Origin: Chloroflexota bacterium
Lineage (GTDB): Bacteria; Chloroflexota; Dehalococcoidia; Lucifugimonadales; UBA3495
DNA: 51,407 bases
Direction: 5' to 3'
NCBI GenBank assembly: GCA_009840175.1
Contig: VXOI01000011.1
Coordinates: 1-51,407, forward strand
Positions 23,911-38,711 of the stretch are shown here, piece by piece. The notes beneath the pieces are model-generated. The model was not told the origin of the DNA and did no database searches. It saw nothing but the letters and a program-made list of their open reading frames with translations. A program made the position numbers and the translations under genes. The first letter of the stretch is position 1, and every line of letters begins with the position of its first letter.

Positions 23911-24741
23911 CTACTCGGGGTCTCGCAAATGAGGGAACATCGCCAGCGGCGTGGCCGCCAGCAGCCCGGCGTCCACCGGCAACGTAACGCCGGAGACCCA
24001 GCGGGACTCGTCTGAAGCCAGAAACAGGGCAGCGTAGGCCACGTCCCACGGCGTTCCTTCCACACCCAGGGGCCCGGCGCGGCGGCGCAGGTCCAGCATT
24101 TCCTGCGATGTGTGGCGGGCTACCATCGGGCTGTGAACGTGGCCGGGGGCAATGCAGTTGACCCGCACGTTATCGCGCCCGTAGTGCACCGCCATGGAGT
24201 TGCTCAGGCCGATGATCCCGCCTTTCGACGCGGCATAGGGGTGGCTGGCTCGCCCGCTGCCGGCCCGCAGGCCCACGATAGACGACAGGTTGACAATGGA
24301 GCCGCCGCCCGCCTCAATCATCTGGGGGATGGCGTGCTTGCTGCAAAGCATCACGCTCTTCAGGTTTACGTCCATCACCGTGTCCCAGAAATCCTCATCC
24401 ACGTCGGTGACCGAGCCGGGGCCGCTGATGCCGACGTTGTTTATCAGCACGCTGACGTTGCCGTAGCGGGACTTGGCGGCCTCAGCCATTTCGCGAGTGT
24501 CTTCGCTGCTGGTGACGTCCCCGGCGAAGATGGACGCCTCGCCGCCTTCCTCGCGGATCATCGCCAGGGTGGTCTCGGCGTTGCGTTCTTCCCTGTCGAC
24601 GAGCAGCACTTTCGCTCCCTGCCGGGCGAACAGGATCGAGATGGCCTGTCCGATGCCCACAAATTCGCCGCTGCCGGTGGCCCCGGCGCCGGTTACGATG
24701 GCGACCCTGTTGTTCAGCCGGGTTCCGCGTTCGGTGGTCAT
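23911..24741 (-). CDS. SDR family NAD(P)-dependent oxidoreductase
   Basis: 276-residue classical short-chain dehydrogenase. The cofactor motif is TGAGATGSGEFVGIGQAI, with a longer loop than the usual TGxxxGxG. LVDRE marks the cofactor-specificity strand with an acidic residue, which favours NAD. NNVGISG, the catalytic serine in VNLSSIVG, and Y-x-x-x-K in HPYAASKGGI are all present. AAGGAG precedes the ATG. It is the last gene of the minus-strand run that includes the selenoprotein, but an 82-base gap holding a hairpin repeat separates the two, so co-transcription is uncertain. Substrate unknown. Confidence 0.92.
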   Translation of the reverse strand: MTTERGTRLNNRVAIVTGAGATGSGEFVGIGQAISILFARQGAKVLLVDREERNAETTLAMIREEGGEASIFAGDVTSSEDTREMAEAAKSRYGNVSVLINNVGISGPGSVTDVDEDFWDTVMDVNLKSVMLCSKHAIPQMIEAGGGSIVNLSSIVGLRAGSGRASHPYAASKGGIIGLSNSMAVHYGRDNVRVNCIAPGHVHSPMVARHTSQEMLDLRRRAGPLGVEGTPWDVAYAALFLASDESRWVSGVTLPVDAGLLAATPLAMFPHLRDPE

Positions 24742-24831: not shown

Positions 24832-25389
24832 TCAGTTTAATGTCCCTTCCTGCAACAGTTTGGCGACCTGCGGTGCCAGAAATTGGACGCGCTCATCCAG
24901 CCCGGCAGCCCCGACGTTGGTGATGGGATGCGGACATACGATGTAGGGGAAGCCCGGCACGCCCATCAGCTTTGTGTAGGCTTTGGCTGTCGTGACGAAT
25001 ACATCGGTGATGATGGTGGCGGTGGGGAAGCCCAGCCGCTCCAGGGTAATTCCGTCGTGCAAACTGCCCGACGAGCAACCCCCTCAATCGCCAATGCCGG
25101 TGACAATTAAATCCGCGTGGCGGTGCAGTTCGGCCATCACCTCCGGCTTGGGCGGAAGCGACGCGCTGTGCTTCTTGACATAAAAGACTTCGGAAAACTC
25201 GAACTCGTCGTTGAGTATCTCGCTGATGGCCCTGAGTATCACGTCCGAGTTGGCCTTGGAGTTGTCCAGCAGAGCCAGCCGCTTGCCCCGGATGTCCGCA
25301 GGGCGGTCGGCCAGCGTCAGCGGGTTGGGCCCGGGGTCGGCTCCGGTGGGGTCTACCAACTGGATTTTATGCGGCGTTGCGGTAGTCAC
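24832..25389 (-). CDS. UGSC-family selenoprotein (in-frame UGA read as selenocysteine)
   Basis: A 185-residue protein if the TGA at 25086-25084 is read through. The two halves are in the same frame and join as GIGD-U-GGC-SSGSLHDG. UGSC-family proteins carry Sec or Cys at this position, in U/C-G-S-C; here the motif is U102-G-G-C105. The N-terminal half (GKRLALLDNSKANSDVIL, YVKKHSASLPPKPE, ADLIVTGIGD) and the C-terminal half (ITLERLGFPTATIITDVF) both match the family, so this is not two genes. Start is GTG with GGGAGG six bases upstream. A SECIS-like hairpin follows the UGA at the correct distance. Biochemical role unknown; a redox role for U/C is inferred. It is 24 bases behind its partner gene. 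Confidence 0.85.
25052..25074 (-). promoter_or_regulatory. Bacterial SECIS-like hairpin for the UGA at 25086-25084
   Basis: With U of UGA as 1, bases 13-18 pair with 30-35 (one G-U pair), 19/29 mismatch, 20-22 pair with 26-28, and the loop is G23-U24-U25. In E. coli fdhF the loop bases recognised by SelB are G23 and U24 on the same numbering. Confidence 0.65.
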
Positions 25390-25413
25390 TTGCGCCTCCC
25401 TTCGCTGATAGCG

Positions 25414-26526
25414 TTAGTCCCCGCGTCCGGGGAGAGGGTAGGGATCTTCGTCGCCCGATTCCGGCACACGGAATTCCTCCCATGAGTCGCGGATGGGGAT
25501 GGTGATGGCGGGCAAGCCGTGGTAGTTCATCATCAGTTCGCTGTATATGCCGCTGTCGCCGCCAGCCTTCAGCACCAGGATGCCATCGGGCGAAGGGGCG
25601 GCGGGAACGCGGGTGTCCTCGTCGCCGTCAGCTATCGCGCCATTGACCGCGCCCAGCCGCTTCATCTGCGCCCGGCTGCGCCAGGCCTTCTCGTAGACGT
25701 ATTCCTGGATTTGTCGGCGGCTCCAGCCTTGACGGCCCAGCATTTCAGCGTGCCAGTGGCCCACGACCCAGAACCAGGGAGCATCGTTCAGGTAGATGCC
25801 CAACCCGTGGCTGGACATGGCGTCGGCGGTGGCGTCCATCAGGCTCTCGGCGGTGACGCCATAGCGGTTGCCCAGCATCTCGGGGTCCTGGATGGTCGCA
25901 ACAGTGACCGTGGACTGGTTGGCGTCGAATCCTCGGGAGACGTGGAACGGCTCCCACGGGCTGCGTTCCTCGTCCTCACCGATACAGACGCCGAACTTCG
26001 TCAAGGAACCCATGCATCCCCGGTCGAGAACGTTGGGCCGCTGCTCGAACACGTTAATCAGGATGAGCCGGATGGCGCGCCCGATGGTGGCGTTGGCCCG
26101 ATGGCCGGGGCTGAACAGGTTGCCAGTGCAGTTAAGCTCGATTTCGTTGCGGATGGGGCCGTTGACCAATATCAGGATGCCCGGCGAGTTGGTGGCCGCC
26201 GATGCTTCGTGAATGCAGTTGGGATCGTGCCGGAACATGGCGTCCATAGTCGCTAGTACAACCGGAAAATACTCCGGCAGGCAGCCAGCCATCACCGCAT
26301 TGGCGGCGGCGTGTTCGGCGGTCAGCGCCCTTCGCCGCACCGGAACCTCGCCAAGAATCTGGTCCGGCGGCAACGACACCGCTTCCAGCATCGCCTCCAC
26401 CCGCTCCAGCGTCGGCGGCACCACCGGCAGGCCGTCGGTCCAGCCGTGACGGTAGCACTCTTCGATGGCGTCCAGGTTCTCGTCAACTTCATGGAGTCGC
26501 GCCCGATGACTATGCAAGTTCATCAT
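25414..26526 (-). CDS. Conserved protein of unknown function, partner of the UGSC selenoprotein
   Basis: 370 residues, no assigned enzymatic family that I recognise. A conserved-looking opening (CYRHGWTDGLPVVPPTLERV), NAVMAGCLPEYFPVVLATMDAM, ILILVNGPIRNEIELNCTGNLFSPGHRANATIGRAIRLILIN, then DEERSPWEPFHVSRGFDANQSTVTV and AMSSHGLGIYL. Proteins with this pattern are, from memory, common in bacteria and often annotated hypothetical. Several cysteines are spread through it, without a CxxC. An ATG-ATG pair at 26526/26523 is preferred over a GTG at 26580, because an extended -10 (TGCTACAAT) overlaps the longer form. Only 24 bases separate it from the selenoprotein gene, so the two probably act together. 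Confidence 0.75.
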   Translation of the reverse strand: MMNLHSHRARLHEVDENLDAIEECYRHGWTDGLPVVPPTLERVEAMLEAVSLPPDQILGEVPVRRRALTAEHAAANAVMAGCLPEYFPVVLATMDAMFRHDPNCIHEASAATNSPGILILVNGPIRNEIELNCTGNLFSPGHRANATIGRAIRLILINVFEQRPNVLDRGCMGSLTKFGVCIGEDEERSPWEPFHVSRGFDANQSTVTVATIQDPEMLGNRYGVTAESLMDATADAMSSHGLGIYLNDAPWFWVVGHWHAEMLGRQGWSRRQIQEYVYEKAWRSRAQMKRLGAVNGAIADGDEDTRVPAAPSPDGILVLKAGGDSGIYSELMMNYHGLPAITIPIRDSWEEFRVPESGDEDPYPLPGRGD

Positions 26527-26570
26527 CCACCAGGCCAGAATCCAAATTTCCGGGTCTGAAAGTTGCGCGG

Positions 26571-26579
26571 ATTGTAGCA
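26571..26579 (-). promoter_or_regulatory. Candidate extended -10 promoter of the UGSC operon
   Basis: TGCTACAAT on the minus strand, about 45 bases before the ATG at 26526. No good -35, as is common for extended -10 promoters. Confidence 0.4.
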
Positions 26580-26613
26580 CGTATGCATAACGCGACTATT
26601 ACGATTGCCTTGT

Positions 26614-27651
26614 CTACACCGGCCCCACTCGCTCGGCCGCGTCTCGGGCCGCAGCCAGATACACCGGATTGGGATTCAGGGCGTACTCGCGTAGGCAGGC
26701 CTCGGTGAACTTTATTGAGTGCGCGCCACCCGCAGCCACTGCCCGGTCTATAAGCTCTTCCTTGTCCTCGATTGGCTTCGCCAGTCCCGAATTGTCCTGA
26801 GCTGGCACCGTGGAATACCAGGAATAGACCGCCGCGCACGCTTGCCAAGCGTAGCGCGCTGCCGGCCGGGAGTCGTCTTCCTCCAGATACGGAGCCAGCA
26901 TTCTCAGCGCGCTTGGGGCGGTCACCGTGTGAACGAAGGCCACCAGGTTCTTGGGACTGGCCAGATATATTCCGGCGAAAGTCTCCGTGAGGCTGGATAT
27001 GAAAAGCGACAGGTCGCCGCTGGCGTCCGCAAGGTCAATTGCCGAAGCAAACTCCGGGTGTTCTTCCATACCCTTAATCTGCTCCGTGATAGACCCTGAA
27101 CCGTCGAAGTCCGGGCCGTGCAGTCGGTCTACATGGCTGAGAGCAGTCTTGGGGGTGTGACCTATATTCGCCGCTGAAGGCTGGCCCGGCAGAGTGTAGT
27201 AACGCGCGGCCCAATAGCCCAAGCCTCGGGCCAATTCGTGCCTGCGTTGAGGCGTTTCCTCGGAGGAGAGGCTGCGGACTGCATGGGCGGTGCGGATGAG
27301 GCCGTGGGTGGCCGCAGCCATAACCGCGGGAGCTAATCGAGGCACCCATTGCCTCACAACCTCCTGCCACGGAGCTTCGGACAATTCGTTCTCGAACAGT
27401 TCTATCCAATCGCCCATCCGCTCTCGCGCTCCCAGATACTCTCGCCATTCTTCCGGCGGTATGGGCAGCGACGGCGACGGACGGTACATCAAACGCTTTC
27501 TGTACTCATCCACCCACGGCAGCACGGCGTCTTCCCGTCCGAGGGCGAACAACGCTTCCGAAGCCATGGGGCCGTGATTGGCGTTGCCATTTACCAGCTC
27601 GGCCCCGGCAAAGCTGAGGAGGTCCAGCGTCTCGTCTATGGTAATCGCCAT
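26614..27651 (-). CDS. Questin oxidase family protein
   Basis: 345-residue member of the questin-oxidase-like family (formerly DUF4243). Characteristic stretches are NANHGPMASEALFALGRED, VLPWVDEYRKRL, THGLIRTAHAVRSLS, RRHELARGLGYWAARY, FVHTVTAPSALRMLAPYL and HSIKFTEACLREY. In fungi a member carries out Baeyer-Villiger-type ring opening of the anthraquinone questin; bacterial members are uncharacterised. Conserved histidines in NHGP, HGLIRTAH and FVHTV may bind cofactor or metal (inference). ATG 27651 has GAGGGA ahead and is preferred over a TTG at 27663. It lies between the amidohydrolase and UGSC genes in the same direction, possibly in one transcript. Confidence 0.85.
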   Translation of the reverse strand: MAITIDETLDLLSFAGAELVNGNANHGPMASEALFALGREDAVLPWVDEYRKRLMYRPSPSLPIPPEEWREYLGARERMGDWIELFENELSEAPWQEVVRQWVPRLAPAVMAAATHGLIRTAHAVRSLSSEETPQRRHELARGLGYWAARYYTLPGQPSAANIGHTPKTALSHVDRLHGPDFDGSGSITEQIKGMEEHPEFASAIDLADASGDLSLFISSLTETFAGIYLASPKNLVAFVHTVTAPSALRMLAPYLEEDDSRPAARYAWQACAAVYSWYSTVPAQDNSGLAKPIEDKEELIDRAVAAGGAHSIKFTEACLREYALNPNPVYLAAARDAAERVGPV

Positions 27652-27676
27652 GAGTTCCCTCAAATAGAAGCTGGCG

Positions 27677-28705
27677 TCAGGCGGACGCTGCCAGCCGAGC
27701 GGCTATATCGTCGTTGGCCAGTTTGGCCCGATGGGTGTCGATGTCGATGCCATACAGCCGGGCGGCATTCTCGCCCATGATCTTGCGCTTGATGGCCGGG
27801 GTGAGTTCCACGCCGAACTCCTCGCGGATGTCATCGGGAAGCTGGAAGCCCATGAACTTGTCTATGATCCACTTGGGGCTCCAGATGGCGTAGTCGCTGC
27901 CGAACAATATGCGATCCTCGCCCAGCCAGAAGAGCAGGTTGGCCATTATCTCGGCGAAGTACTTGGGGCGGGAGTTGATGAAGGCCATCGCCACCGATGT
28001 TCCGGCATAGACGTTGGGTTCCTGGGTGGCGATCCAGCAGAAATCGTCCAGCCGGGGCAGCCCGACGTGCTCGACGATGAAGTTGAGGCCGGGGAAGTCG
28101 GTGGCCGCATAGTCCACGTCGTTAACGTCAAAGGCGTCGCGGCTGAGAGGATAGATGGTTGGCCCCTTGTGAACGTGGACGTTTTTGATGCCCATTTCCT
28201 GGGCCAATTCCAGGTACTTGTAGGACCACGGGTCGTTGAGCTTCCAGCCCTTGGACTCGCCGCGCCACTCGGCGGTGTAGAGCTTCAGGCCGCCTATCGG
28301 GTAGTCGGCCATCATCTCGCGGAACCTGTCCAGGCCGGCCTCTTCCTCTCGGGGGTCGTAGGAGCCGCAGAGAACGAAGCGGTCAGGATGCTTCTGCTTG
28401 ACCACGTTGTTCTTCTGATGGGTGTTGAAGCCGGTCTTGAAGAACTCGTAGAGGTAGGTGGAGTTCAGCACTGCCACGTCCACGTAGCCTTCCAGAAACA
28501 TGTCGCTGATGAGAGCTTCCTCGCCGTAGTTGCAGTACTTGTCGAAGTCCCAGACGTAATCAGCGGGCGACAGGGCGGAATGGTAGTCGTAGAAGCACTT
28601 GATCCATGCGTTGCCGTAGTCGTTGCGGTGATTGTCAGGCCCGGCGTCCCAGAAGTGCATGTGACCGTCCACCACGAAAATGTCTTCCCCGTTTACTGAG
28701 TACAT
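27677..28705 (-). CDS. Amidohydrolase of the propane-monooxygenase-cluster type
   Basis: 342-residue amidohydrolase-2 enzyme. Metal/catalytic sites: FVVDGHMHFWD (HxH), NVHVHKGPT, FIVEHVGLPR and LFGSDYAIWSP. Long stretches such as KLYTAEWRG, GWKLNDP, VHVHKGPTIYPL, DVDYAATDFPGLNFIVEHVGLPR and ATQEPNVYAG agree, from memory, with the amidohydrolase that accompanies propane/alkene soluble diiron monooxygenases in Rhodococcus, Gordonia and mycobacteria. GAAGGGAGG precedes the ATG. The next gene upstream is a DUF59 protein, as in those clusters, but no monooxygenase is in the window. Its reaction in those systems is not established. Confidence 0.88.
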   Translation of the reverse strand: MYSVNGEDIFVVDGHMHFWDAGPDNHRNDYGNAWIKCFYDYHSALSPADYVWDFDKYCNYGEEALISDMFLEGYVDVAVLNSTYLYEFFKTGFNTHQKNNVVKQKHPDRFVLCGSYDPREEEAGLDRFREMMADYPIGGLKLYTAEWRGESKGWKLNDPWSYKYLELAQEMGIKNVHVHKGPTIYPLSRDAFDVNDVDYAATDFPGLNFIVEHVGLPRLDDFCWIATQEPNVYAGTSVAMAFINSRPKYFAEIMANLLFWLGEDRILFGSDYAIWSPKWIIDKFMGFQLPDDIREEFGVELTPAIKRKIMGENAARLYGIDIDTHRAKLANDDIAARLAASA

Positions 28706-38637: not shown

Positions 38638-38711
38638 TGCCCCGTGGTGTAGTGGTAGCACGCCAGCCTTTGGAGCTGGAATCCCTGGTTCGAGCCCAGG
38701 CGGGGCAGCCA
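38638..38711 (+). tRNA. tRNA-Gln(UUG)
   Basis: Complete cloverleaf: acceptor TGCCCCG/CGGGGCA, short D stem GTG/CAC, anticodon stem CCAGC/GCTGG with loop CTTTGGA giving anticodon TTG, and T arm CCTGG-TTCGAGC-CCAGG. The discriminator G is followed by an encoded CCA (38709-38711). Reads CAA codons. Confidence 0.95.

Follow-up and report, generated by a model that had tools for sequence, protein, structure and literature searches.

Among the closest described systems are the selenoproteins GrdB and PrdB (PF07355), whose selenocysteine (Sec) aligns with that of UGSC when profiles are compared. GrdB acts together with a second subunit (PMC10838667). The same source describes substrate-specific paralogues of the GrdB type, as well as FarB/FarE of monofluoroacetate dehalorespiration, in which Sec is predicted to attack the C-F bond. 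The UGSC family itself is already known from Pfam, NCBIfam and the accessible sections of several papers (PMC2398784, PMC9312934, PMC13188914, PMC5029168). In its accessible part, the 2008 paper considered a thioredoxin (Trx)-like fold likely for UGSC and noted fusion of UGSC to a domain called 'Unknown_1' (PMC2398784). Excerpts of later work report UAG-decoded Sec for UGSC proteins of Geodermatophilaceae (PMC5330540, citing its ref. 56) and list UGSC with the numbers 26 and 33, which we read as organisms and genes (PMC5029168). A constant partner, a relation to GrdB and many-copy genomes are not among the matters reported in the accessible passages of PMC2398784, PMC13188914, PMC5330540, PMC9312934, PMC5029168, PMC10838667 and PMC1088965.

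We analysed a stretch of 51,407 nucleotides (the window), which makes up contig C221 of a draft genome. The draft spans 4.31 Mb and is 94.65% complete with 6.1% contamination. The window contains a UGSC-family gene with the following features:

24832..25389, minus strand: gene for a probable UGSC-family selenoprotein of 185 residues, starting at GTG, with predicted Sec102
25084..25086, minus strand: in-frame TGA predicted to be read as selenocysteine, at an identical position in all seven genomic copies
25395..25401, minus strand: Shine-Dalgarno-like AGGGAGG, 5 bases ahead of the GTG start

The earlier note on this DNA had described two half-frames in one phase that are split only by a TGA, and this description was confirmed. 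The first half-frame comprises 101 codons from the GTG (25389-25084, minus strand) and is closed by the TGA at 25086-25084, which is the sole interruption before the second half-frame runs on in phase to another TGA at 24834-24832. Read-through yields a product of 185 residues with U102 within the peptide GIGD-U-GGC, so that the motif is UGGC rather than UGSC, as the note had also said. Its assignment to the UGSC family is likewise correct, with PF24696 matching residues 11-180 (E 1.8e-52, 178.4 bits against a cut-off of 25) and NF041046, 'UGSC family (seleno)protein', scoring 131.2 bits against a cut-off of 125. The apparently broken gene very probably encodes a selenium-containing protein.

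The note had further supposed that the organism decodes UGA as Sec and had proposed a search for selA, selB, selC and selD, and all four are present in the same assembly, which supports the supposition. The draft encodes a tRNA-Sec (69.9 bits where the cut-off is 47, with ARAGORN in agreement and the anticodon TCA), selA (538.9 bits), selB (312.6 bits, with its C-terminal part within the same 652-residue frame) and selD (381.6 bits, with a TGA of its own). These genes lie on other contigs, and contamination is therefore possible for any single one of them. PF24696 identifies seven loci in the draft with one TGA apiece, and each of these TGAs takes the U position of a U-G-[SG]-C motif. The seven paralogues share just 22-47% mutual identity and, judging from this divergence, the copies are probably old.

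Directly upstream of the UGSC gene lies a second gene, which we call the partner:

25414..26580, minus strand: partner gene, upstream neighbour of the UGSC gene, from an orphan family of ~350 residues with no Pfam match

The partner's predicted structure is uncertain for roughly its initial 20 residues, and translation may in fact begin at an ATG near 26526 instead of at the GTG of the open reading frame. At least 90% of 61 family members retain Cys100 and Cys199. These 61 sequences match nothing in Pfam or NCBIfam beyond presumed noise (best E 0.011), including no family of GrdE/PrdA-type substrate subunits, and their Pfam matches at E<=1 include no glycine-reductase family. Within the draft genome, partner homologues occur at all seven UGSC loci: five are adjacent, the one on C3 is ~2.6 kb away, and the one on C93 is fused to UGSC in one frame. 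A scan of the entire genome found seven partners and seven UGSC genes.

Scanning GTDB with the partner alone gave 580 confirmed loci, and we analysed the best 80, a selection that leans towards close relatives. UGSC was found within the flank at 71 of these 80 loci, with 77 of the 80 UGSC matches within 1.4 kb of the partner and a median gap of 83.5 bases. Contig ends truncate four of the nine flanks that lack UGSC (L058, L109, L110, L115), and the remaining five comprise three from Poribacteria, one from Bacillota, and L111. UGSC is nonetheless carried by 8/8 searched genomes of these nine (all but L110). In the Poribacteria (L096, L098, L108) a UGSC gene with TGA lies elsewhere, with the two genes far apart or on separate contigs, while the Bacillota locus (L097) has two consecutive partner genes and a UGSC gene with TGA elsewhere in the genome. 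An in-frame TGA suspected inside the three Poribacterial partners is actually Tyr (TAC/TAT) at an alignment break.

Co-occurrence extends to 400 genomes of the phylum, where UGSC is found in 42, the partner in 42, and both in 41 (Fisher p 1e-53). The unshared genomes are G251, with UGSC only in a gene that starts 323 bases into its contig, and G073, with the partner only. At most 8 UGSC and 5 partner candidates were scored per phylum genome, and copy numbers from this set are therefore lower bounds. Distance matrices for UGSC and partner correlate with r 0.857 over 69 linked pairs, against a maximum of 0.141 in 2000 permutations, with the kinship of the organisms contributing to this value. 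The two proteins do not resemble each other, with hhalign giving 0.3%. By these comparisons, a UGSC gene with sequence signals for Sec at UGA occurs and diverges together with its partner, and we regard both Sec in UGSC and its pairing with the partner as near certain. The 'Unknown_1' domain in the accessible part of the 2008 paper is probably this partner (PMC2398784).

The pair can be present in many copies. A Burkholderiales bin of ~5.7 Mb (G417, L058) has 26 UGSC matches, 24 of them over the cut-off with one TGA each, and 28 partner matches; by coordinates, 23 of the 24 full UGSC genes adjoin a partner match and the remaining one lies close to where its contig ends. Loci L192-L195 belong to this multi-copy case. 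Another Burkholderiales bin (G408) has 12 UGSC and 12 partner matches. A single genome can thus draw over twenty selenoprotein genes from one family, each of them liable to TGA splitting under standard gene calling. The available text on a Methylomirabilota bin describes 63 selenoprotein genes (PMC13188914), some of which may be UGSC.

Downstream of the window TGA lies a potential signal for Sec insertion, which we number with the U of UGA as 1:

25052..25074, minus strand: SECIS-like hairpin, positions 13-35
25070-25056, minus strand: conserved part of the hairpin, positions 17-31
25064-25063, minus strand: hairpin loop G23-U24, positions 23-24

In the computed fold, the hairpin has the loop G23 U24 U25 and the pairs 20-22/26-28 and 14-18/30-34, with a G19-A29 mismatch between the two paired blocks and the possible G-U of 13-35 unpaired. 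When the window was scanned for in-frame TGA codons within open frames that are followed by a GU-loop hairpin, the UGSC site alone ranked first (score 7), with four other sites as runners-up (score 5). We compared this hairpin with those at other single-TGA sites, drawn from this genome, from the genomes sampled in its phylum and from the GTDB loci; of 119 with enough downstream sequence, 116 unique sites were used. GT occupies positions 23-24 in 111 of the 116 sites, and all three loop-proximal pairs are formed as well in 102. Pairing in the upper stem (17-22/26-31) reaches 95.5% across the 116 sites compared with a maximum of 83.9% in 1000 shuffles, and pairing drops to 13-66% once the stem is slid. 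Pair 19-29 appears as T-A, G-T, G-C, C-G, A-T and T-G and is paired in 91% overall. Pairs 13-16/32-35 are 46.6% paired compared with 45.7% in shuffles of the 116 sites; this lower portion of the stem shows no conservation and is therefore not shared by the family. The earlier note had placed a hairpin at the positions that SelB reads and had suggested folding it in relatives; the loop G23-U24 and the covarying upper stem stand, but the lower stem, which does form in the window, is unconserved in the relatives.

Codon 8, which bears G23-U24, encodes Ser in 106/116 sites and is AGT in 106/106 of these Ser cases, against a background in partner genes of 9.3% AGT among 1717 Ser codons. Relative to synonymous reshuffling, hairpin energy has a median z of -2.0, with 55% of the 116 sites below 0.05. 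The hairpin argument rests on the codon-8 bias and the covariation, with the energy signal being modest, and because the sites are mutually related the p-values overstate their independence.

The codon at the Sec site is nearly always TGA. In the 42 UGSC-containing genomes among the 400 from the phylum there are 95 UGSC matches, 90 with one TGA and five with none. These five read C-W-G-T, T-R-S-G and M-G-V-T at the site or, in two cases, are partial, one of the partial matches being an N-terminal fragment whose gene is split and has the TGA in its other piece. Relatives that lost Sec or the motif are found at L147-L149 and L190. In 20 genomes chosen because they hold partner loci, 96 UGSC matches comprise 90 with TGA, one with TAG, and five with no stop (two short pieces below the cut-off, two Cys genes from Geodermatophilus, and one D-G-G-T). 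At the best 80 of the 580 partner loci, 78/80 UGSC matches have TGA and the other two are halves of one TAG gene, with no Cys orthologue among these 80 matches. The earlier note had described both Sec and Cys versions of the family, which agrees only in part with these counts: true Cys forms (C-G-S-C) occur in two genes of one genome, and nearly all members have TGA (90/95, 78/80, 90/96). The note had also looked to close relatives for Cys at this site as a refutation, and the closest orthologues that we found (L038 and L039, 74-75% identical in both the UGSC and the partner genes) retain TGA. The U-G-G-C motif of the window gene is common to the closest orthologues found (L038-L042) and occurs in 8 of the 78 TGA-containing matches at the best 80 of 580 partner loci. 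Cys105 is invariant in 59 aligned TGA-containing UGSC sequences. Two other variants at the Sec site are U-A-G-C in the UGSC relative at L130 and U-S-T-C in that at L146, the latter in a 577-residue frame.

Geodermatophilus ruber (L104, G405; L189, L191) is a natural Sec/Cys comparison within one genome, with three UGSC genes that are all next to partners. In one copy the U codon is TAG, and the hairpin after it keeps AGT and the GU loop, while the two copies with TGC have neither AGT nor GT at positions 23-24. In the phylum, strong selA matches occur in 39/42 UGSC genomes, with none in G344 and weak ones in G217 and G329; since selA is over the cut-off in 321 of the 400 genomes, its presence with UGSC is weak support alone. 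The genome with no selA match, G344 (L145), is 98% complete and has a TGA-containing UGSC gene in a 661-residue frame.

We then compared UGSC with GrdB and PrdB. In each of seven full-length GrdB genes from the phylum (L154-L160), TGA lies just beyond the last position of the PF07355 profile, and stop counts confined to the profile therefore miss Sec. The GrdB at L154 reads ...LTAT-U-GTC-TRCGATMAKEIERAGIP...HP. U-G-[TS]-C is found in 4/7 of these proteins and U-G-T-G in 3/7, followed by ER.G(I/L)P in 7/7, which may be compared with LERLGFP in the window UGSC, and by a downstream HP in 3/7. With hhalign, 59 UGSC sequences align to the seven GrdB C-terminal domains at 94.8% (E 5.5e-8), with U on U, and to nine PrdB-like proteins (seven with TGA and two with Cys, one being from this genome) at 74.4% (E 2.7e-5), while GrdB and PrdB-like proteins align to each other at 99.9%. 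After masking of eight motif columns the scores are 35.7 for GrdB (57.8%) and 38.6 for PrdB-like proteins (72.5%). In control comparisons, reversed GrdB scores 15.5 and neighbour clusters score at most 28.5 (15 of 16 clusters used, with cluster 0 left out and unrelatedness assumed). Restricted to the residues that precede U, GrdB aligns with UGSC at 0.5% with a score of 17.4. The masked scores exceed those of the controls, so UxxC is not the sole basis of the homology. These profile alignments support the Sec half of UGSC as a putative distant homologue of the Sec domain of GrdB and PrdB, with moderate support for homology to GrdB once the motif is masked. In the window UGSC itself, hmmscan at E<=0.001 gives PF24696 only and no match to PF07355. 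The same genome also encodes PrdB/GrdB-like proteins on C4 (L169), with TGA at the U of U-P-L-C, and at C18:17164-17565.

A structural model of UGSC built from 59 sequences (pLDDT 90.1, pTM 0.83) has strands that alternate with helices. In this model Sec102 lies between strand 94-98 and helix 103-118, with Cys105 three residues on. Foldseek matches are led by a family 3 glycoside hydrolase domain (E 1.6e-4); lumazine synthase, NQO1 and PurE also appear, the query TM of all of these staying under 0.5, and no thioredoxin fold is among the matches listed (50 of 1531). From the names of these matches and the strand-helix order we call the fold Rossmann/flavodoxin-type; the model thus supports a predicted Rossmann-like fold, not the thioredoxin-like one that was published. 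The partner model (pLDDT 88.2, pTM 0.88) has one Foldseek match at E<=0.001, to fumarase (8.8e-4, TM 0.27), and no convincing solved fold. Cyanuric-acid-hydrolase folds matched the partner more weakly than fumarase and were treated as no match. No usable match came from searching the sequences of solved structures with profiles of UGSC, the partner and GrdB.

The pair lies in a run of genes on the same strand:

23911..24741, minus strand: short-chain dehydrogenase, just downstream of UGSC
26614..27663, minus strand: questin-oxidase-like gene, just upstream of the partner
27677..28705, minus strand: amidohydrolase (Amidohydro_2), same strand as the pair

Further upstream, the run also includes an iron-sulfur assembly P-like gene, a carbon-nitrogen hydrolase and two alpha/beta hydrolases. 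The window has a tRNA-Gln (TTG) gene at 38638-38711. Of ten neighbours scanned at five of the six other loci in the genome, one, at C120, is again a short-chain dehydrogenase, and the remaining neighbours mostly differ (NHL repeats, CMD, NuoF-like, molybdopterin oxidoreductase, IMPDH-like, luciferase-like, aldo/keto reductase). At the best 80 of 580 GTDB loci, with each neighbour cluster named from one representative, short-chain dehydrogenases are the most frequent at 18 loci, followed by luciferase-like monooxygenases at 10 and TctC receptors at 8. The neighbours vary and indicate no single reaction, and we infer what looks like one enzyme module recruited into many catabolic settings.

The reading that we favour, and consider reasonably probable, is that the locus encodes a two-subunit selenoenzyme that works like GrdB with its substrate subunit. 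In this mechanism the partner would form or complete the substrate site, as GrdE or PrdA does for GrdB or PrdB. Sec102 would attack a small organic substrate at an electrophilic carbon or a polarised bond, Cys105 would resolve the intermediate as a selenenylsulfide, and a thiol donor would reduce the selenenylsulfide to reset the enzyme. Different paralogous pairs could act on different substrates. Because the partner has no detectable kinship with GrdE, we say that the pair works like GrdB-GrdE and not that it is such a pair. A broader proposal, to which we give slightly less than an even chance, is that UGSC and its partner form an undescribed class of two-subunit selenoenzymes, an offshoot of the GrdB/PrdB Sec domain that cleaves or reduces varied organic compounds in many bacteria, possibly including aerobes, with the more than twenty pairs of one genome perhaps serving one substrate each.

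Several other explanations would account for part of these observations. The UxxC motif and the conservation of Cys100 and Cys199 in 90% or more of the 61 partners would suit a thioredoxin-fold thiol-disulfide oxidoreductase for which the partner is a protein substrate or reductase. We consider this unlikely given the confident model of another fold (pLDDT 90.1), the 50 of 1531 Foldseek matches listed with no thioredoxin among them, and the profile similarity to GrdB and PrdB. It is just as unlikely, in our judgement, that the pair is not a catalyst but an electron-transfer, sensor or accessory module for neighbouring oxidoreductases. The neighbours do include short-chain dehydrogenases, luciferase-like monooxygenases, NuoF-like proteins, molybdopterin oxidoreductases, aldo/keto reductases and IMPDH-like proteins, but at the best 80 of 580 loci the commonest other neighbour cluster occurs at 18 compared with 71 for UGSC, and the UGSC-partner fusion and correlated divergence suggest a self-contained unit.

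Two further explanations concern the TGA itself, and we give almost no weight to either. The standard code does give two fragments, in a draft assembly with 6.1% contamination, as expected for a split pseudogene or a sequencing error, but the same TGA is present in seven paralogues and in 78/80 matches at loci of other genomes (best 80 of 580), and the hairpin is under selection at synonymous sites. A changed genetic code in which UGA is read as another residue, or plain readthrough, would also leave the frame open across the TGA, but would be at odds with the Sec machinery in the genome, the SelB-type hairpin, and the TAG/TGC exchange in Geodermatophilus. The partner gene, the six further copies and the relation to GrdB go beyond the earlier note, and a near-constant partner together with a relation to glycine reductase turns 'function unknown' into a testable two-protein enzyme.

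Compared with the UGSC family as described in Pfam, NCBIfam and the accessible literature (PF24696, NF041046), the window copy shares the sequence family, the UxxC Sec motif and a SECIS, but its motif is UGGC, and the Trx-like fold suggested for the family is unsupported. The UAG-Sec UGSC proteins of Geodermatophilaceae belong to the same family, whereas the window copy uses UGA instead. FarB/FarE, in the portion of the source available to us (PMC10838667), pairs a Sec subunit with a second subunit, as UGSC and its partner would, but that system is from Synergistota and of the full-length GrdB type. UGSC differs from GrdB and PrdB in being a single domain of ~185 residues without the N-terminal part of GrdB.
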